Positions 1,763 through 62,500 of a stretch of 64,000 nucleotides of DNA are shown here, piece by piece. The DNA is taken from contig NC_089281.1 of the NCBI RefSeq assembly GCF_963678975.1, forward strand, positions 27,136,765 through 27,200,764, written 5' to 3'. Each line of letters starts with the position of its first letter. Positions within the stretch are counted from its first letter, which is position 1. Made by a program: the position numbers and the translations under genes. The notes below the pieces were generated by a model, which had not been told where the DNA came from, made no database searches, and was given only the letters and a program-made list of their open reading frames with translations. Source of the stretch: Dysidea avara. Lineage: Eukaryota; Porifera; Demospongiae; Dictyoceratida; Dysideidae.

Positions 1763-3448
1763 GATTTCACTCAGCCTGTTCAGCCTGTAGATGATATTAA
1801 TGAATTTTTTCGTAATGTTGCTATTACCATCAATCATCAACCAGCAAGTAGTTTTACTCCAAATATTAACACTAATGCTACTAGTAATAAATTTTGTTTT
1901 GATACTGTTGATCCATCTATCGTTATGTCCTTGCTTAAAAAGCTTGATGTAAGAAAGTCAGTTGGCCCTGATGGTTTTTCAGCTTCTTTTCTTAAACAAA
2001 TAGCACCAGAAATCATTTTCACATTAACTTTACTATACAATAAATCATTGTCATCTGGTACCATTCCCTTAGAGTGGAAAAAATGTAATGTAACCCCAAT
2101 CCATAAATCTGGTTCTTTTGAAGACCCTGGAAATTTTAGACCAATCTCTGTAGTTCCCATAATTGCAAAGCTTCTTGAAAAGATTGTGGCTTACCAACTT
2201 AATTCATATTTTGAAAAGAATGGTTTACTGTTTGATTATCAAGGAGCTTATAGAAGAGGGAGATCTACAGAGCAACTATTACTAACTGCAATTGACACTA
2301 TTATACATGCAATTGATAACAAGGCTATTGCTTGTGTTGCTTTCCTTGACCTAAGGAAAGCTTTTGACTCTCTTGACCATGTTATTTTGCTTCAGAGGCT
2401 TAACTCTCTTGGTGTATGTGATGTTGAACTAGCATGGTTCACAGATTATTTAAGTGATCGTTTTCAACGTGTCAAGTTTAATGGAAAATATTCTGATTGG
2501 GGATTAGTTAAAGGTGGTATACCTCAAGGAAGTGCCTTAGGGCCTCTTTTGTTTTTAGTGTATATGAATGAAATGTCCTTATATGTTAAACATAGTATTC
2601 TCCTGCAATTTGCTGATGATGTAGCTGTAATTTGTTCTGGTATCAATTATTCAGATGTTCAAAGGCAAATGTGTGAGAATTTGCAGTTAATATCATGTTT
2701 TATTTCAGAAAGCAAGATGAAGTTAAATGTGAAGAAATGTAATGTAATATGGTTCAAGCCAAAATCTGTTAGTGATGATGAATCACCTCCAGTGTTTTCT
2801 ATTGACGATGATATTTTAAAAGAAGTTAGCAATCAGAAATATCTAGGAATTGTGTTTGATAGCAAGCTAAATTGGAGAGATCAGATATCTCAAGTATGCA
2901 AAAAAATGTCTTATTACCTATTCTGGATTAACTCTAATAGAAAATCACTTTCAACTACCATCATTAAAATGCTTATTAACTCGCTTGTAATATCACATCT
3001 AGATTATGCACTCCCAGTGTGGGGACCACCACTCTCACAGAACCTAGTAGATAGATTACAATGTCTGCAGAACTGGGGCATACGTATAGTTTACTCTTTA
3101 CGTAAGTATGATCATGTATCTAAGTATCGTAACAACTTATCATGGCTACCAATTAAAAATCATATTCGTTATCGTTGTCTCTGTGCTATGCACCATTATC
3201 ACTATTCTCAGGACAATGTTATTCCTCTAGATCCTCCTATTTTATTTGGTTCACTTCATAATCACAACACACGGCACCCCACAACTTATGCAAACACTGA
3301 AAGATGTCATATATCAAGTACACAACGATATTTTAAAATACAAATAATTAAATGGTGGAATCAATTACCTAACTATTTATATATCAATAACTATCAAGAA
3401 TTTACTTCCACTTTACATCACCATTTACTTACTGATTTTAAAACTTAA
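1763..3448 (+). CDS. Non-LTR retrotransposon reverse transcriptase, 5'-truncated
   Basis: An open frame of about 560 codons encodes a LINE reverse transcriptase; the first ATG is at 1925 but homologous sequence starts about 1790. Motifs in order: KSVGPDGFSASFLK (fingers), GNFRPISVVPIIAKLLEKIV, the catalytic A motif FLDLRKAFDSLDH, GGIPQGSALGPLLFLVY, and the catalytic C motif LLQFADDVAVI, then YLGIVFDSKLNW and the thumb region YALPVWG. No apurinic endonuclease domain or ORF1 precedes it, so the copy is 5'-truncated. The RT frame itself has no stop. It belongs to the Jockey/CR1/I-type group by overall motif style; the exact clade is not resolvable by eye. It ends 44 bp before a fold-back element. 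Confidence 0.9.
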   Translation, partial: DFTQPVQPVDDINEFFRNVAITINHQPASSFTPNINTNATSNKFCFDTVDPSIVMSLLKKLDVRKSVGPDGFSASFLKQIAPEIIFTLTLLYNKSLSSGTIPLEWKKCNVTPIHKSGSFEDPGNFRPISVVPIIAKLLEKIVAYQLNSYFEKNGLLFDYQGAYRRGRSTEQLLLTAIDTIIHAIDNKAIACVAFLDLRKAFDSLDHVILLQRLNSLGVCDVELAWFTDYLSDRFQRVKFNGKYSDWGLVKGGIPQGSALGPLLFLVYMNEMSLYVKHSILLQFADDVAVICSGINYSDVQRQMCENLQLISCFISESKMKLNVKKCNVIWFKPKSVSDDESPPVFSIDDDILKEVSNQKYLGIVFDSKLNWRDQISQVCKKMSYYLFWINSNRKSLSTTIIKMLINSLVISHLDYALPVWGPPLSQNLVDRLQCLQNWGIRIVYSLRKYDHVSKYRNNLSWLPIKNHIRYRCLCAMHHYHYSQDNVIPLDPPILFGSLHNHNTRHPTTYANTERCHISSTQRYFKIQIIKWWNQLPNYLYINNYQEFTSTLHHHLLTDFKT

Positions 3449-4756: not shown

Positions 4757-5447
4757 GTGTATACTCCTCCTATATGGAAGAACGGCTATGCCGAATATAG
4801 GAGTTTAAAACCAAATTCAATTCAATTCAATTCAGCAGATGAAACTGACTACGAGGAGACTTTTTATAAAGGTATAGTCCTTAACTGTCAAACGCCCGTA
4901 TGTACGTAGTACACTTCAGTGTCACCCATAGCTTGGCAGGGCCGGGAATTATGTTTTTTTTTCTTGTTTCTTTTATTCATGAGATTACCAGCCGTGACCA
5001 GTTTCCACCACCGGCTCTAACACTGAGATGGCCTGTCAGGAGATGAAATCGACTACAGGAGAGATGTAAAGTAATCATTGAGTGATCAAGTATTGCTGTA
5101 CGTAGTTTGCAGGGAGGAAACTCCTATCAAATAGCTATTCGTTTGTATTACACCTGTAGTAAGTACCAGGGGACATGGCATAGAAGGGACCATTACTATA
5201 CAAGTCATACCGTAGGTGATCATTAGGCCATTGGATTACAGTCGTTCATGTAGATTAACTAGTAAATCAAGTTGTGATGCATAGCAGCTAAGTAGCCTAA
5301 AGTATAAGTATAGGCAAGGCATGGTGTAAAGGGATCTATGGGCAAGGCAAGATTATAATCCTTCCATGAATACAATCACAGTTACAATAATAGAATAATT
5401 GTTGTCAACTACCATACGTACTGTACATGCCAGTCGTAGCTATGCAG
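4757..5447. other. Non-coding region
   Basis: No gene seen. AATTC is repeated near 4815-4834. The rest shows nothing I can name. Confidence 0.5.
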
Positions 5448-5543
5448 TAGTCTCGTCCTCGCAAACCCATTCTCCGGGGTGGCACTTATCGATTAGAGAT
5501 TATAAGCGCCACCCCGGAGAATGGGTCTGCGAGGACGAGACTA
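5448..5543. mobile_element. Mutator-like (MULE) MITE, 96 bp
   Basis: Almost the whole element is a hairpin: it starts TAGTCTCGTCCTCGCAAACC and ends with the reverse complement, around a centre CTTATCGATT...ATTATAAGCG. The 9 bases GCTATGCAG flank it on both sides (5439-5447 and 5544-5552). A 9-bp target duplication is characteristic of Mutator-like transposons. Relatives with the same terminus are at 26484-26626 and 60562-61182. Confidence 0.88.
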
Positions 5544-5552
5544 GCTATGCAG

Positions 5553-8123: not shown

Positions 8124-8240
8124 AACCTAGTAATCTCAAGTACTATGAAGTTTTTTTACAGATTTGTGTTCCCAGGTGGTTCTAGAACAAATTCAGCTTG
8201 GTTGCCCAAGTGGCAACTTTGGGCAACTCTGGAAAATTGT
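8124..8240. repeat. Left terminal inverted repeat of the 8124-11009 transposon
   Basis: It pairs with 10894-11009. The inner border is at CTCTGGAAAATTG against CAATTTTCTAGAG on the right. Confidence 0.88.
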
Positions 8241-8564
8241 GAAAATTTAAAATGGCCTATATGACTATGACCGGCTCCAACAGAAAAACTTTTTTTGTGT
8301 AATATGTCTAATATAGGGTTATTGGGGGTGCAGAATTCATTTCTGGTGTTAACTTTTGAATCTGAGGTGTAGAACATAGTGAAAATTTAAAATGGCCACC
8401 GCAGAAACAATTCACTACAAAAATTAATGCACGATGCTTTTAGCATACGGTTAGCTATGGTTTTTGTAGATATTTTCTCATGTCATTTTTTCCACCATAG
8501 CATTATATACAAAAATTTAGAATGATTGGTTGAGATTACTATACTATAAAACAAAGCTAAGTAG

Positions 8565-9923
8565 CTAGAGCATGTCTAATTCAAAATCCTCTTCAGCAAT
8601 TATGCAGTTTTCATCATGAACATCACCAGACTCTCCTTCCTCTTCATCTTCGATCGCAGTGTCACTTTCAAAATAGTCATCATCTGCCTCATTTTCATCT
8701 TCTTCACTGCTTGTTCCAGGTCTCACAGAGTGTGGATTACAGCAGTCTTCTCCACCAGAGCAATTGCAATAGGAAGTGCATGGTACATGCTTTTTGTGAC
8801 AGCTGCAAGCTTCAGAACTGCATCGCTTGCCTTGTGCCTTGCAGCTACACTTTATTAAGTCAATTAGTTCAGGTGGAGCTGGAGCACCTGGAGCAATTGC
8901 AGGAATCGGAATATCATTTTGGATAATCCATCCAAAGTGGGTAATGTCTGATGACTGGTCAGGTGGTGCCTGCTGGTCTGCTGCTTTCCATAGCATTACC
9001 TGTAGATGTGCCCGCAAAACATGCAGCAAGAGGTTGGCAGATGTTGGAGGTAAAGCCATGATTTTTGTGGCTTTCTTCTTCTTAGTAAATAGTTTGAAAC
9101 GAGCATTTTCCATTGAGGTCCCGCTAGGCTGACGATAAAGAGCACAGAAAAATTGTTGAGCCGCTTCCATCAAATCAGTGTGGGTGGCGTCTACCTCACC
9201 AAGTTCATGGGCTAAACCTGGGAAGTTTCCAGTAAGCAGGGTGTTAAGTGCACTGATTTTACCCTTGCCATATGGGTACGATACTGTGTCACATCCACTT
9301 AGGGCATGCATACCAAGGAGCTGAAAGCATTTTTCGCCCAAGTCAGCACAAGTAGCATTAATGTCCAGCACTGTCCCATCCCATCTTTCCATCTGTACCT
9401 TACATTGCAGTCCAGCTCGATGCACCCAATAGACCAATAAAACAAAGACATCAGTGTCATCACTAAGAACACGAATCACACTCTTGCCATGGCTAGCAGC
9501 CTGTATGACATACGAAACCATTGTGACATCAGCTTCATCATGACTAAAGGCACCATCATCCCTAGTTTCCATTGTCACATTGTTATCCATGCTGAAGGTG
9601 CACAACACACTTGCCAACCGTCGCTTGTTGTTCTTGCTTTTGAGAATTGCATCTCTTTTGGGAAGGGGACTAGTGATGGAGAGCTCGTAGTCAACTACCA
9701 CCTCCCCAGCACGCCGCATTCTCTCATGATCTTTGGCAGAAGTGTCATTGTATTTGTCAAATACAATGATTTTCTCAGTAGCATCTGGATAACGACTAAT
9801 CTTACTTTGAATGCAAGCAATCAAATTAGACAGATTACCACCATGTGGCCACACAGTGTGATAAAATAGCTGCGAAACATCCACTACAACAGTTTCAGGA
9901 GTTACTGGTAAGACATCAAGCAC
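8565..9923 (-). CDS. Transposon protein with XPG/PIN-like nuclease motifs and CXC domain
   Basis: The 452-residue frame has an acidic-residue pattern typical of XPG/FEN-type nucleases: VVVDVSQLFYH near residues 13-23, SHDEADVTMVSYVIQAA (about 127-143), RVLSDDTDVFVLLVYW (about 151-166) and LLGMHALSGCDT (about 203-214). Residues about 365-405 form a cysteine array (CSCKAQGKRC, CSCHKKHVPC, CNCSGGEDCC), a Tesmin/TSO1-type CXC motif that usually binds DNA. The tail is very acidic. The frame stays open upstream of the ATG to about 10038, so the true protein was longer. Within the transposon this is the probable C-terminal half of the transposase. The catalytic assignment rests on motif spacing only. 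Confidence 0.75.
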   Translation of the reverse strand: MLDVLPVTPETVVVDVSQLFYHTVWPHGGNLSNLIACIQSKISRYPDATEKIIVFDKYNDTSAKDHERMRRAGEVVVDYELSITSPLPKRDAILKSKNNKRRLASVLCTFSMDNNVTMETRDDGAFSHDEADVTMVSYVIQAASHGKSVIRVLSDDTDVFVLLVYWVHRAGLQCKVQMERWDGTVLDINATCADLGEKCFQLLGMHALSGCDTVSYPYGKGKISALNTLLTGNFPGLAHELGEVDATHTDLMEAAQQFFCALYRQPSGTSMENARFKLFTKKKKATKIMALPPTSANLLLHVLRAHLQVMLWKAADQQAPPDQSSDITHFGWIIQNDIPIPAIAPGAPAPPELIDLIKCSCKAQGKRCSSEACSCHKKHVPCTSYCNCSGGEDCCNPHSVRPGTSSEEDENEADDDYFESDTAIEDEEEGESGDVHDENCIIAEEDFELDML

Positions 9924-10026
9924 TCCAAGACGTTTAACTAGAGCAGACTTGTTGGCTTTGCGGAGACAACTGTGTTCATCTAGAAGTGATGAAGGAACTG
10001 AACATAGCTCATATGTAAAAAGGTGC

Positions 10027-10446
10027 TCAAGCTTTATCTTTCTCCCACCTATCAGGATGCTTAGGGTTTATAGGTTCACACACTTTAGCACAAAATAAAC
10101 AGTGATTTTTGAACTGAAAATCACCTACTTGTGATCTTCTAACCCTAGCTGTTGGAGCCTCTGTGATGTCAGCTTCCGAAGCCTTCCTCTTCCTTGACAC
10201 AAGTTTCTTTATATGATCCTTTGATGTATACGAACAATAACAGTTCTTATGGAGTTCAACTGATGCTTGTTCTCCATGAGAATTTAGAATGCTCTGCAAT
10301 TTGTTATGAAGCTCCTGGTCACCACGCTCCACTGCACACTCTATCAGCTTCTTCACTGCTTTTTGTTTGAAAGTGCTAAATTGCCCAGACTTACTACAGA
10401 TTGGAAGAAAGCACTTTTGATCACCCAATGTAGCCATCGGAAGCAA
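10027..10446 (-). CDS. Transposon protein, cysteine-rich N-terminal part
   Basis: A 139-codon frame with paired cysteines: CFLPIC near the start, CYCSYTSKDHIKKLVSRKRK (about residues 67-86) and CLFCAKVCEPINPKHPDRW (about 115-133). The spacing suggests one or more zinc-binding modules followed by a basic patch. It ends in a stop exactly where the next frame (minus strand, continuing into 9923-8565) opens, so a deletion or frameshift separates them. It is read in the same direction and lies inside the same inverted repeats. Confidence 0.65.
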   Translation of the reverse strand: MLPMATLGDQKCFLPICSKSGQFSTFKQKAVKKLIECAVERGDQELHNKLQSILNSHGEQASVELHKNCYCSYTSKDHIKKLVSRKRKASEADITEAPTARVRRSQVGDFQFKNHCLFCAKVCEPINPKHPDRWEKDKA

Positions 10447-10893
10447 AAGAAATGTGAAAATTGTTGCAGAAATATGTATTGCAGGATGTCAAACACCTAA
10501 AAAACAATTTTTTTAAAGTTGAAAGTAAAGTTTACAAAAATGAAACAGAAAAACGTACTGCATTAATTAGAAAACCAGCCAAATGCATCAAATCTACACT
10601 TACTCTACTCCTGATCCAATATCAAACCTTGTAGATTATCATACAACCAAAACTTAAGTCTGAAAACGAGTGGTAGCTACTCTTCTGCTCCCTTTTAAAA
10701 ATTAATATAGAACGTCCGTTACCATGGCAACCAATTACGTAATTTGTTTTTTGACCTCAAATTAGTATCATCTTGTGCAGAAAAATGTGCTGAATTCAAT
10801 GGTGCCAAAATTACTTTGATTGTATAAAATCCCGAAGAGTTATGAACACTAGCTCATATGTAAATTTATGACTTCCTGCATATAAATTTTCGC

Positions 10894-11009
10894 CAATTTT
10901 CTAGAGTTGCCCAAAGTTGCCACTTGGGCAACCAAGCTGAATCTGTTCTAGAACCACCTTGGAACATAAATCAGAAAAAAAACTTCATAGTTCTTGAGAT
11001 TACTAGGTT
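10894..11009. repeat. Right terminal inverted repeat of the 8124-11009 transposon
   Basis: Reverse complement of 8124-8240. The outer end is CTTGAGATTACTAGGTT. Confidence 0.88.
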
Positions 11010-26308: not shown

Positions 26309-29300
26309 ATGGACCAGGAAGCCCTAGCGACTGAGGTTCGTTTTGTTATAACTTCCTTGTAAAGGAGTGTATATACACCTTTATATGTGATATAGTACCT
26401 TAAGAGTCTTTCCCCCTAAATGGACATGTCAAATTAATTTGTGACCCTGGTTTTAATAGTGCGATGTAAACCCACTATTTCCCTAGTCTCGCGTAGCCAG
26501 ACCACTTTTTCCTTTGTGTGCGGGTGGGGAAAAAAGGTGGGTGACAGTACTTTTGTGTGGGTGGGTGACAGTACTTTTTTCCCCACCCACACACAAAGGA
26601 AAAAGTAGTCTGGCTATGCGAGACTACTATTTCCCTGGAGTGACTTTGTATGGTGAAGCTCATGCAAATTTAATGTAAACATAGACTAGTGTTAATTACA
26701 TAATTAATGACTTCTATGTGGCACTGCCTGGCACTGTAGTTGAGTGTATGCAAGAGAAAACTACAGAGTAAGGAAGAAGCGTTGAGGATTCTCAAATCAG
26801 AGTTGGACAACGAACGAGAACAGAAGGAACACTACAAACATGTGATATCAATAATGGTATTAAGTGTGTGCGTGTATGTATGTATGTACGTTGGGATAAA
26901 TCTGGTGCACGTGTATGTACACGCACGCATGCAATCGTTTAAGCATTTGTTTCAACAGGTTGGTGGTGGTAAAAATGGGGCTACCCAACTTGAAGAATTA
27001 TCAATGGAGGTGATACATCATCAATAACATGTTGTATATTTTCAGTAATGGCTTGCAGGATATTACAGTGATTTTGTCAGAGAAAGATGATAAAATAAAA
27101 TTGCTGGAAGAGAAAATGAAGGAGTTAAAGGTAAACATTTAATTGCCACTGGCGGTTGTGTTATTAAATAGTATTATGTGTAGTCATTGCAGGAGAAGAA
27201 TGTGTCAGGAGAGTACAGTGTTTCCTTGCTACAAGAGCTGCTCAGCCAGCGTACACATTGGAATGAGGAAAAACAAGAGCTAATTCACCAGTTAGAAATC
27301 TCTACACAGCAGGTAAATCATTATGACGTATTCAGCAATCACTACAAATGGGGTGTTTTTTTTTTATAATTGGTATGAGGTGTTCATTATTAAAGGAAAC
27401 CACTCACTAAAAATTCTTTAGTAGCTATGAGATATCTCAGTAATGCAAGCACCAAACAGGCACAGATTTAAATAATATTTAAGTTCACAATAAGCCAATA
27501 GTGCACTTTACAGGGAGAGCAACTGAATCATAAAAAGTAAAATTGAGGAGTGTAACTAGTCCTAGTAACCATCTGTAAAGAACGGTCACTTCCAACCAGC
27601 TAAATTACAATAAGAGCACAAGTTTAATTGCTGAACACTTGTATCTATATGCCATCATGTCCATGCAATTATTTTGTTGTGGTTATTTCTTTGTGTTTTG
27701 CAGTAACTTACTGTGCTGTAATTACAAATTTATCATTGAGTCTCTATTGTACCGGTAAAAGTTTGGACCCCAAAATGGTACAAGAATTGTGATGGTTACT
27801 GTTATATATTAGCACAACATCACCTTGTCAAGCAATTGGACAGATAATCAGACATAGTCTGCATACAACCAATTGGGGTTTAATTCGGTAATTCCCCATC
27901 CAGGATATCGAATTTGAGTTAGTCCTTGATTACACTACTGCTTAATACGCACTTAAAATCCAAGTACAATCCCAGTGGGTGCTTCATTTGAACGTCAGTG
28001 GAACAAAAATGTGGATGTCTACCAAAAGCTTAACACATCTTGTGATACGTTGTAGATTATGTTGTGGAATAGTTGTGGAATAGTTGTGGAGTGTAGAAAA
28101 TACAGCTGTGTGATTGTTAGGTTGGGTTGACCAGTCCTGAACGTATTCACATTGTATCCTATATATCCCAGCCAACCTTTGTCAGCCCAAATTCCCTTGA
28201 TCAATTCACATTACACTTTATTCCAAGTCATTCCACACTGTGCCCAGGTGAGGTGAGTAGTATCAAGCCTCTCCACTATTAACTCTTGCTAGAATGAATT
28301 TGGCCATTAGAGGTAGTGGCTATGATTCAATAGTTTGGTGTGTTCAATTGTTTGTTTTTCATGTCATACTGTCCATGGTCATGTGTGCTTGTGTTAAATG
28401 GTGCACCACAATATTATGGTACACAGTACATGTCTGTAGGTGTAAAAAAACTATTGTTACTTTAGCTAACAAGTTGACGTAACTGCTATAATACTTGCTA
28501 TCTAATTTATATCCTGTCATTCTACCTGTTTTGTATTACACAGCTTGTGTAATACCAACTATGGACATATTTGTGCTGAAAGTCTTCCTTAGAAACCATT
28601 TAGCTTATAAACCCAACAAAGGTACATTACTATGTGCATGATCATGGTGATGTACATGTTCTATTCAGGTACTCTTTGCTGGTATGTAACTTGATATCCT
28701 ACACATTTTACTACATGTCTATTTAATTTTTCATTGTTCTTGTTGGCTAACAAGTACATACAACTATTAGGGCTGGGATGAATATTGAAATTTACCTTTG
28801 AACGTTCGCTAATAAAATGTTGTAATATTCGAAGCTTCGGTGTTAGCTTTCAAGTTACAGGTTTTCTTGTATTTATGCACATCCTTCTTAAGTTTTATCT
28901 TTCTAATTCTATTTGATAGCATTTGGAAAATGAATAGCAGCAGTACTGAATGGCATGATCGATCGACTGCAAATGGGCATGTCCGCTATACTGCAATCAT
29001 GCATAGGTAAACACCAACTAATGGCTAAAAGGACATTTCCATGAATTATTTATCATTTTATTAGGTGTTTTAAGGCTACAACTATGGTAGCAAGCTACAC
29101 TGCGACAGTTTAAAAGTAGGCATGGCACATGAAGATCGATAGCAAAAAGACGAACATCGATCATGCAAGATCTGCAATAAAAATAACGATGTTTATTTGT
29201 AATTCTTTCGTAGACTATGGATACATTATGAAGCTTCGAAGGATACTTTTATAATTCGAAATTTACTTAACCTTTGAACCCACGAAACATTTGAAGCTTT

Positions 29301-59584: not shown

Positions 59585-62500
59585 TTGTGAGGCAGCATAG
59601 CCAAGCTAGAGCATTGGCCTGGTAATCAAAAGTTCCAGGTTTAATGCCCAGTTATACTAAATTAGTGTTGTTGTTGTTTCCTGAGCAAGAAAGTTTACTT
59701 GCACTGTTCCAGTCTACCCAGCTCTTAAATGGTGACCTGGTGTCAACTGGGGAAGTAGCCTATCCAGCTGTAACATCAATGGGTACCTGGTGTAAATGTT
59801 TCCTTGAGCAAGAAACTTCTCACATTGCTCCAGTCTACCCAGCTGGGAACCTGGTGACCTGGAGAAGCATATGCCAACTGTCCAGGTAAAGGTCCAGGTG
59901 GGTCTTTGGGTGCCGAAATCTTCACCTGTGAAACATGGCAAAGCTTTTTGCGGGTTACTAGTCCTGCGCCAGGAGGATTTGCCTGCACTGGCTCGTAGCA
60001 CCCAAGTAGTATACAGGTGTCCCAGTGCTGGTTCACTGGGTAGGTGTGACTGTGCCAGTGGCAGCTGAAGGCTTTTTGCTTTTGTGTGTGTAGTGTGTAT
60101 GCATGCATGTGTCACAGACGAACTATCTTTGTGTCCTCATGTTATCCCCACAGATTAACAGAAAGATGTCGTACTCATCCTGATGTGTCCCAACAAGGGG
60201 GTCAGGTGTTTATCGACTCTTTAACTGAACTACTAGGAAGACTGCTGGACTACAGGTAGGTGTTCCAACCAATTTCATTTTTCATATTGCATTCCTCGTC
60301 TGTTGTAGGAGCGTCGAGGAGGGAGCTGAGCACAAGACACTCAGGATGTTTGTGATGTTTAACTTGCTGGTCAGTGTAGACTGAGACCTACAGCAGGTCA
60401 CTGTGTAATGAGGTCACCTGTCATAATGAAAATTCCCAAATGTGTCATTTGTGTGCAAAGTGACCCTCATAATGTCAGAATGTGGCCATAATGTAGCATA
60501 ACCACATGAGGTGCTTTGTGTCCTAATATGAAGATGTTTGTGTCCTTAATATGGCAGTGTGTAGTCTTGCATGGCCAGACCGCTTTTTCTCCGCATGGCG
60601 CTTATCGATTGGAAATTATAAGCGCCTGCTCCGAAAAAGGGTCTGGAACGGTTAGCATAGGCAACTCGTTTCTAACACCCCCAACCACTATGGAGGGTGT
60701 TAATGAATTCCAACAAGCTTTTGCCCACATCTCATCCCAAAAGCATTCAATATTTGAATTCTAAATCTTTTTGGCACTTGCCAGTTGATGAATCGTGCGC
60801 CATTCGAGGCATGGATGATGGATTTGGTGACAAAAGCGACAGACACTATGCCGGCTAACAGGTAAACATATTTCGTGTTTTAAGCCGCACCACTTTCTTT
60901 TTTACAGTACTTGCCAGTGAAGCAGGCTCTACAGTCACAGCATGGGCCTCACGGTTTGATGTCTTGCTGTTGAAAAGGCATAGAACCGAATATTGAATGT
61001 TTGTGGGTCGAGATGTGGGAAAAAGCTTGTTAGAATTCATTAACACCCTCCATAGTGGTTGGGGGTGTTAGAAACAAATTGCCTATGCTAACCATTCCAG
61101 ACCCTTTTTTGGAGCAGGCGTTTATAATTTCAAAATTGATAAGCGCCGTGCAGAGAAAAAGCGGTCTGGCCACGCGAGACTAGGCAGTGTGTACGTCTTT
61201 AGTATGTGTTTTATGTCCTTAGTATGGAAGTGTTTATGTCCCTAATATGCAAATGTTTTTAATATATAGAGGTAGGTGTTTGCATCCTTACTATGGAGGT
61301 GTTTGTGTCCTTAATATGGAGGAGTTTGTGCTGTGTTAATTATTTATTTTACATTAAGGAGACGTTCCTCTGTTTTTATTTTTTGCCAGAATTTCTACAA
61401 AGAAGTTGGTAGAGAAGAAATGTACATCAGGTAAGTAAGGGTGGCAGTTGTTTGTGTTTGTTATCTGTCTGTATGTTTGTGTGACTGTCCTGTTCAATAC
61501 ATGTCTTACACAGATACATCTACAAGTTGGCTGATCTACATAAGGAACAGAACAGTTATGTTGAGGCAGCATACACACTATTGCTGCATGCTGAACTGCT
61601 GCAGGTTAGACTGACTGCTCTGTTAGAGTGATTTATTGTTTATGTGGTATGCACACTTATACTACACACATACACACATACACACATGTAATGCACACAC
61701 ACACTACACACCTGTTGGCGGAATCATTATTTGTAGTGGCTATTCATATGGGCTATTTGTATGGTACTGCTGTACAAACATTTTTTCTATTCATATGGCA
61801 ATCATCCATCGTAAGCTAGGGCTGGCATGGCAAAGTCAAGGCAGCCCTAGCTCACTTCAAGCTCACCAAAAATTAACCTTCATACAGGCAGTGAAAGACA
61901 TTGTTATACTTAACAGGCAACCTATATATGGCAGGTTGGGTTCAGCATTGGGTTGTTCTTCACCCTGGTGTATGTACATAGCTAGCTAGGTTCTTATTGG
62001 TTCACATTTATGAGAAACAAATTAAGGGAGGTGGCTAGCTAGTAGCGATGTATCATAGTGGTAGATCTATAGCCTGGTGTATGGAGGTAAAGTGTTAGAC
62101 TCTTTTTTATTTTAAAAATTTTTTTTGGACCATAAGGCCACATAAATTTAATGATTAGATTCTCATCACCGCCCACACCAAGTTTTGTGAGACAAATAAA
62201 TTATTTTTAAGCAGTAAATCTCACGTGTTGCTCACGTGCATAAATATTTTTTTTGTTCAATGGTATTGGTTGTTGTACTTATAAGATCTGGCAGCCGTGT
62301 TTTGAAAAGATGGTTTGGCTGTCAGGTGGCAGAACAAGGTACTTTGCTGGATTTGTTCTGCTGGAAAGATCGATAATTCCTTTCCGCTTTCTGACACATT
62401 TTCAACTGCATCGATTGAGTGTGAAATCGGCCGCGATAAGAGAGTAACAGAATTTGTGCGCATTTCCTTAGATGTTTCAGTGGGGGGAAGCAGTGTCTAC

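Follow-up and report, generated by a model that had tools for sequence, protein, structure and literature searches.

Three miniature elements in the window

Three non-autonomous elements, all read on the plus strand, lie in the window, the 64,000-nucleotide stretch of Dysidea avara DNA analysed here. The 96-bp element (5448..5543) is one long hairpin, ends in TAGTCTCGTCCTCGCARACC, a terminus type common to the DUF6589- and helicase-encoding element L072, and is flanked on the left (5439..5447) and on the right (5544..5552) by the 9-bp target duplication GCTATGCAG. Its interior holds a foldback core, GCTTATCGATTNNNNATTATAAGC, with one mismatch (5484..5507, plus strand). Similarly, the 143-bp element (26484..26626) is one long hairpin; its left terminus, TAGTCTCGCGTAGCCAGACC, recurs in L062 and L069, its 9-bp duplication is CTATTTCCC (26475..26483 on the left and 26627..26635 on the right), and no foldback core of the GCTTATCGATTNNNNATTATAAGC type occurs within it. 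The 621-bp element (60562..61182) sits between two copies of the 9-bp duplication GGCAGTGTG (60553..60561 and 61183..61191) and contains an exact match to the foldback core (60600..60623, plus strand). On the right it ends in TAGTCTCGCGTGGCCAGACCGCTTTTTCTC, the terminus of the autonomous family formed by L009, L059 and L061; the left terminus differs from this one at two of the first 20 bases. When folded as single-stranded DNA and compared with shuffles, the 96-bp element has a z of −14.6 and the 143-bp element a z of −14.2.

Inverted termini and an exact, private 9-bp direct repeat are present at all three elements, as an earlier note on this DNA had described. The same note gave the three elements a single 20-bp terminus, with variants, which holds for the 143-bp and 621-bp elements and fails for the 96-bp element, whose TAGTCTCGTCCTCGCARACC is a sister terminus, related to and yet different from that of the other two. 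With up to three mismatches allowed, the 20-bp terminus has four matches in the window, all of them ends of the 143-bp and 621-bp elements, and none in dinucleotide shuffles of the window. Elsewhere in the window, a 507-aa open frame (1925-3448) reads by eye as a non-LTR-type reverse transcriptase.

Termini and target duplications across the genome

A search of the whole genome (550.8 Mb, 108 contigs) finds the 20-bp terminus exactly at 663 forward and 642 reverse places, with none for the reversed control, and with up to three mismatches at 2985 forward and 2990 reverse places, against 1 and 2 for the reversed control. The 5448-type terminus TAGTCTCGTCCTCGCARACC occurs exactly 95 + 96 times (reversed control 0). 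Target duplications were tabulated for 34 bounded elements: besides the three window elements, these are 20 pairs of exact termini from contig C1 and 11 additional full-length copies. The 20 pairs are convergent, less than 6 kb apart and drawn from 100 listed places of the 20-bp terminus, all on C1 and including further pairs beyond those taken; 19 lie up to 39 Mb and one lies later. Left out of the count were L060, whose right end is beyond the stretch, L064, with another type of inverted repeat, L070, one end of which is poor, and L073, which is of a different kind.

An exact target duplication flanks 33 of the 34 bounded elements, 9 bp long in 30 and 10 bp long in three, and is absent only at L062, where both ends are present. 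In the same flanks, 9-mers compared at unequal offsets match in 10 of 29,580 cases; six of these matches come from the 10-bp duplications, shifted by one base, and four from a single local repeat next to L068. With equal non-zero offsets, none of 986 comparisons matches. The earlier claim of transposition with 9-bp duplications is borne out by these counts. The 30 duplications of 9 bp have G or C at positions 1 and 9 in 22 cases each and T at positions 2, 3 and 4 in 12, 13 and 12 cases, and G+C over all 33 duplications is 0.49, versus 0.385 in the window. This composition possibly reflects a weak target preference.

Full-length copies encode a DUF6589 protein and a helicase

The first long pair of termini, L009, spans 5538 bp between 10-bp duplications and encodes two proteins on opposite strands, a helicase and a DUF6589 protein. 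The genome holds at least 111 matches to DUF6589, some of which are pieces of one gene, and a helicase is also present at 29 of the 30 best-scoring DUF6589 loci, which include several near-identical copies; at L042 no helicase match is found within the 4-kb stretch, even at E 1. Among 16 large stretches, namely L009 and 15 longer ones (L059-L073), 12 are full-length copies of 5.2-6.4 kb in which TAGTCT-type inverted repeats bound the DUF6589 gene. In all 12 bounded copies DUF6589 lies on one strand and a RecQ-type helicase on the other, and 11 of these copies have a 9- or 10-bp duplication. As for the other four stretches, L060 runs off its stretch, L064 has other repeats, only one end of L070 is good, the other being poor, and L073 belongs to another kind. 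L064 also encodes DUF6589 and a helicase on opposite strands; its inverted repeats begin (T)CAGACTAGTCAGTAAAG, not TAGTCT, no exact duplication was found, and it is perhaps a diverged family.

The termini connect these copies to the window. L072 has the terminus type of the 96-bp element, and L009, L059 and L061 have that of the right end of the 621-bp element. The 143-bp element is tied to no single autonomous family, a point against the reading that follows. We nonetheless regard the three window elements as very probably miniature, non-coding (MITE-like) relatives of the AcademH-type DNA transposons described below.

Two other long pairs, which have these termini and duplications of 9 bp, were considered as autonomous candidates and set aside. 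Frames of at least 80 aa reach only 90 aa in L010 (3769 bp) and only 100 aa in L011 (2322 bp), and searches with the helicase and DUF6589 queries find no match in either pair.

The DUF6589 protein is a candidate DDD/E transposase

Pfam matches to DUF6589 have E-values of 1.8e-28 in L009 and 6e-30 in L062. The gene has several exons, and its protein carries three motifs in a fixed order, DN(I/V/L)(D/N), GDQ(L/M/V)T and D..xEHLN. The EHLN motif is present in every row aligned for its exon. The DN motif fails in L037 and L064, which are one genomic copy, and reads DNIN in L049/L069; L066, L067 and several short loci lie outside the alignment at this first motif (DNxD). The GDQ motif fails in L058 and in L057/L070, a single copy that contains a stop. 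These rows are not independent counts, since several are overlapping stretches of one locus. Across 11 copies the last large exon has 34-61% identity to the first row, with the Asp and Glu of the third motif invariant. The motifs and their order suggest that DUF6589 is a DDD/E transposase in which the motif acids would be catalytic. A profile search of the PDB with the DUF6589 alignment returned nothing credible, its one designed protein (E 0.26) being taken as chance; in an N-terminal stretch, L063 matches a zinc-finger model below threshold (zf-AD, E 0.0023); and among viral contigs 35 stretches fit a pattern for DUF6589 relatives, none of which was confirmed. No relevant paper on DUF6589 (PF20231) was found among open-licence PMC papers, and its identity as the likely Academ transposase is possibly new.

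The helicase of L009 matches the Pfam models DEAD (3.8e-9) and Helicase_C (2.5e-15). Among NCBIfam models, the RecQ family scores best with the helicase of L063, at E 1e-36 and below the curated whole-protein cut-off of that model. In the PDB, the top matches are likewise RecQ helicases (E 2.5e-21). Judged by these matches, the helicase of the full-length copies is of RecQ type. A helicase-bearing Kolobok family is one rival. The available part of a paper listing 20 superfamilies describes KolobokH as encoding a RecQ helicase and one rhodophyte Kolobok as carrying such a helicase on its complementary strand (PMC9587614). The same part gives Kolobok duplications as TTAA and reports KolobokH from fungi only (PMC9587614), and the elements here have duplications of 9-10 bp that follow no TTAA rule, so that no TTAA-specific 4-bp duplication is seen. 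Kolobok was rejected on this ground, and a family of the KolobokH sort is extremely improbable.

MULE matches lie outside the elements examined

The earlier note had considered movement by a Mutator-like enzyme very likely and proposed looking for an autonomous copy with a MULE transposase. Duplications of 4-10 bp are given for IS256/MuDR in the available part of one source (PMC10045372), and the 9-bp duplications and long inverted repeats found here fit that description. MULE transposases are, moreover, abundant in this genome, with at least 150 matches, many of them in long open frames, and true Mutator-like elements are probably present as well. Because MULEs are so common, their absence from the elements studied here is informative. 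The frames of L009, L062 and L063 match neither a MULE domain nor any other named transposase family (Pfam, E ≤0.1 or ≤1).

A positional comparison, made with the 5448-type terminus, points the same way. Among 100 listed places this terminus forms 30 convergent pairs less than 12 kb apart, 25 of them 96-1510 bp long, including two of exactly 96 bp, and five longer than 3 kb. Four of the five long pairs enclose a DUF6589 match, and the fifth (7977 bp) encloses no listed DUF6589; like L010 and L011, it may be a long non-autonomous copy. No MULE match lies inside any of the five long pairs, and none of the 72 MULE matches listed on C1-C6 lies inside any pair. A single MULE match, at C3:35664807, is less than 4 kb from a 5448-type terminus, which might be held in favour of Mutator; it falls outside the pair, and the pair itself encloses a DUF6589 gene. 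Only four of the 49 DUF6589 places entered fall within 5448-type pairs, which is what one would expect were the terminus types of other families different.

As such, Mutator was rejected: full-length copies with these termini carry DUF6589 and a helicase in 12 of 12 bounded cases, and the listed MULE matches lie outside the 5448-type pairs. Movement of these elements by a MULE transposase is highly improbable, and the Mutator reading is already largely refuted. The earlier note had itself named an autonomous partner from another superfamily as the finding that would speak against it, and DUF6589 with a RecQ-type helicase is what the autonomous copies encode.

Assignment to AcademH and an AcademX-like element

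The AcademH lineage of the Academ superfamily was reportedly introduced by Kojima (2020, Mob DNA 11:15). In the available part of a later paper that cites this work, AcademH has target duplications of 9 or 10 bp, a length related to its helicase, and AcademX has duplications of 3 or 4 bp and a nuclease where AcademH has the helicase (PMC10045372). A RecQ helicase is also mentioned for Academ in the accessible part of a second paper (PMC3627910). Termini, duplications, gene content and their co-occurrence in the same copies are seen directly in this genome. The helicase is found in all 12 bounded copies and at 29 of the 30 best DUF6589 loci, and the duplications are of 9 bp (30 of 34) or 10 bp (3 of 34), with one element lacking any. 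We therefore assign the full-length elements to the AcademH type, not to Mutator, with a probability of about 0.9, AcademH being matched by description. This correction is an ordinary but well-supported one.

The stretch L073 holds a related arrangement. Between inverted repeats of about 290 bp lies an intact frame of 1745 aa (L073:1952-7186) with an N-terminus that is Cys-rich by eye, a DUF6589 domain (Pfam E 4.6e-14) and a C-terminus that we take, by eye, to be XPG/PIN-nuclease-like. Searches gave no match to the helicase queries in the 9-kb stretch and no Pfam or PDB nuclease match for the C-terminus, and no exact 3-4 bp repeat was read by eye in the flanks of the inverted repeats. The DUF6589 profile of the helicase-bearing copies aligns weakly with L073 (hhalign probability 3.8%, E 0.011) and pairwise searches between their proteins give no match, so that the two are joined by the Pfam model only. 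The AcademX-like arrangement of L073 supports the Academ assignment even though direct comparison is weak or empty. DUF6589, with its ordered D, D and E motifs and its presence as the same Pfam domain in the AcademX-like frame, may be an Academ-type transposase, Academ being known here by description.

A separate element of about 2.9 kb lies in the window at 8124-11009, where 131-nt inverted repeats (90%) surround an open frame on the minus strand (8565-9923). Over 359 aa, the product of this frame and the nuclease-like C-terminus of L073 share 23% identity. The element shows no clear target duplication, and the predicted structure of the product (mean pLDDT 37) was set aside.

The elements might instead represent a separate, unnamed DUF6589 superfamily that resembles AcademH only in gene content and duplication length. 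The likeness to AcademH rests on description and not on sequence, and no paper naming DUF6589 was found among open-licence PMC papers, both of which leave room for such a superfamily. Against it, a helicase together with 9- or 10-bp duplications is the combination given for AcademH in the available part of PMC10045372, and the same Pfam domain occurs in a frame whose C-terminus is by eye nuclease-like, as in AcademX. We consider a separate superfamily very unlikely and retain the AcademH assignment.

Foldback ends and a tentative mechanism

When the first 90 nt are folded as single strands, nine of 11 full-length copies reach z ≤ −2.8 against shuffles, and L066 (z −0.94) and L068 (z −2.24) fold more weakly. 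The foldback core GCTTATCGATTNNNNATTATAAGC lies 35-39 nt from the element end. Its 22-nt inner form is found near both ends in seven of 11 copies searched for it (L059, L061, L062, L063, L065, L071 and L072) and the core occurs in L009 as well; it is absent from L066, L067, L068 and L069, the last of which has a version one base shorter. By our own grouping, in which L009, L059 and L061 are one family, about six of 10 families have the core. It is present on both strands in seven of the 20 C1 pairs, on one strand in three and on neither in 10, and occurs 581 + 605 times genome-wide (reversed control 0). Such a core, 35-39 nt in from the ends of about six of 10 families, is possibly new. It has been kept in these families though the last large DUF6589 exon has drifted to about 40-61% identity, and the smallest copies predicted to be mobile consist of a single hairpin, with an end on either side.

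In the proposed mechanism, the DUF6589 protein would bind the ends, cut the element out and join it to the staggered strands of the target, 9 or at times 10 bases apart, and gap repair by the host would turn the stagger into the duplication. The helicase would have an assisting role, which might be to open the foldback ends; miniature copies would borrow both proteins in order to move. The ends and the helicase could then form one working unit, in which the RecQ-type helicase opens or extrudes the foldback for the DUF6589 transposase, and DUF6589 could be the common Academ transposase with helicase and nuclease as alternative partners. This unified proposal is tentative and, on balance, unlikely; a role of the foldback together with the helicase is speculation.

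Identical copies on different contigs

L059 (C2) and L061 (C10) are 100% identical over 5551 bp and have different private duplications, L060 (C6) is 100% identical to both over the 5152 bp examined, and L009 is 98.8% identical. Identical copies on different contigs point to recent transposition. Segmental copying could also place identical sequence on several contigs and is less likely; that L059 and L061 have private duplications of different sequence speaks for transposition. The near-identical arms that the earlier note read as a sign of recent activity are indeed found in the window elements, and recent activity is better backed by L059, L061 and L060. These copies suggest a system that has moved recently and is open to testing.

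Comparison with known systems

Judged by 9-bp duplications alone, thousands of this genome's termini would have been misfiled as Mutator. Pfam's unnamed DUF6589 gains a probable identity, that of the Academ transposase, and orphan genes with this domain would be re-annotated accordingly. Mutator-like (MuDR/MULE) elements resemble those described here in the range of duplication length and in their inverted repeats, and differ in that no MULE transposase is found in the elements scanned. KolobokH shares the RecQ helicase and is unlike them in its TTAA duplications and in being reported from fungi only, as given in the available part of PMC9587614. AcademX finds its likeness in L073, where DUF6589 (Pfam) is joined to a C-terminus that is nuclease-like by eye. 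AcademH, likened by description and not by sequence, is in the available part of its account a helicase-encoding lineage with duplications of 9 or 10 bp, and both features are found in the elements of this genome.
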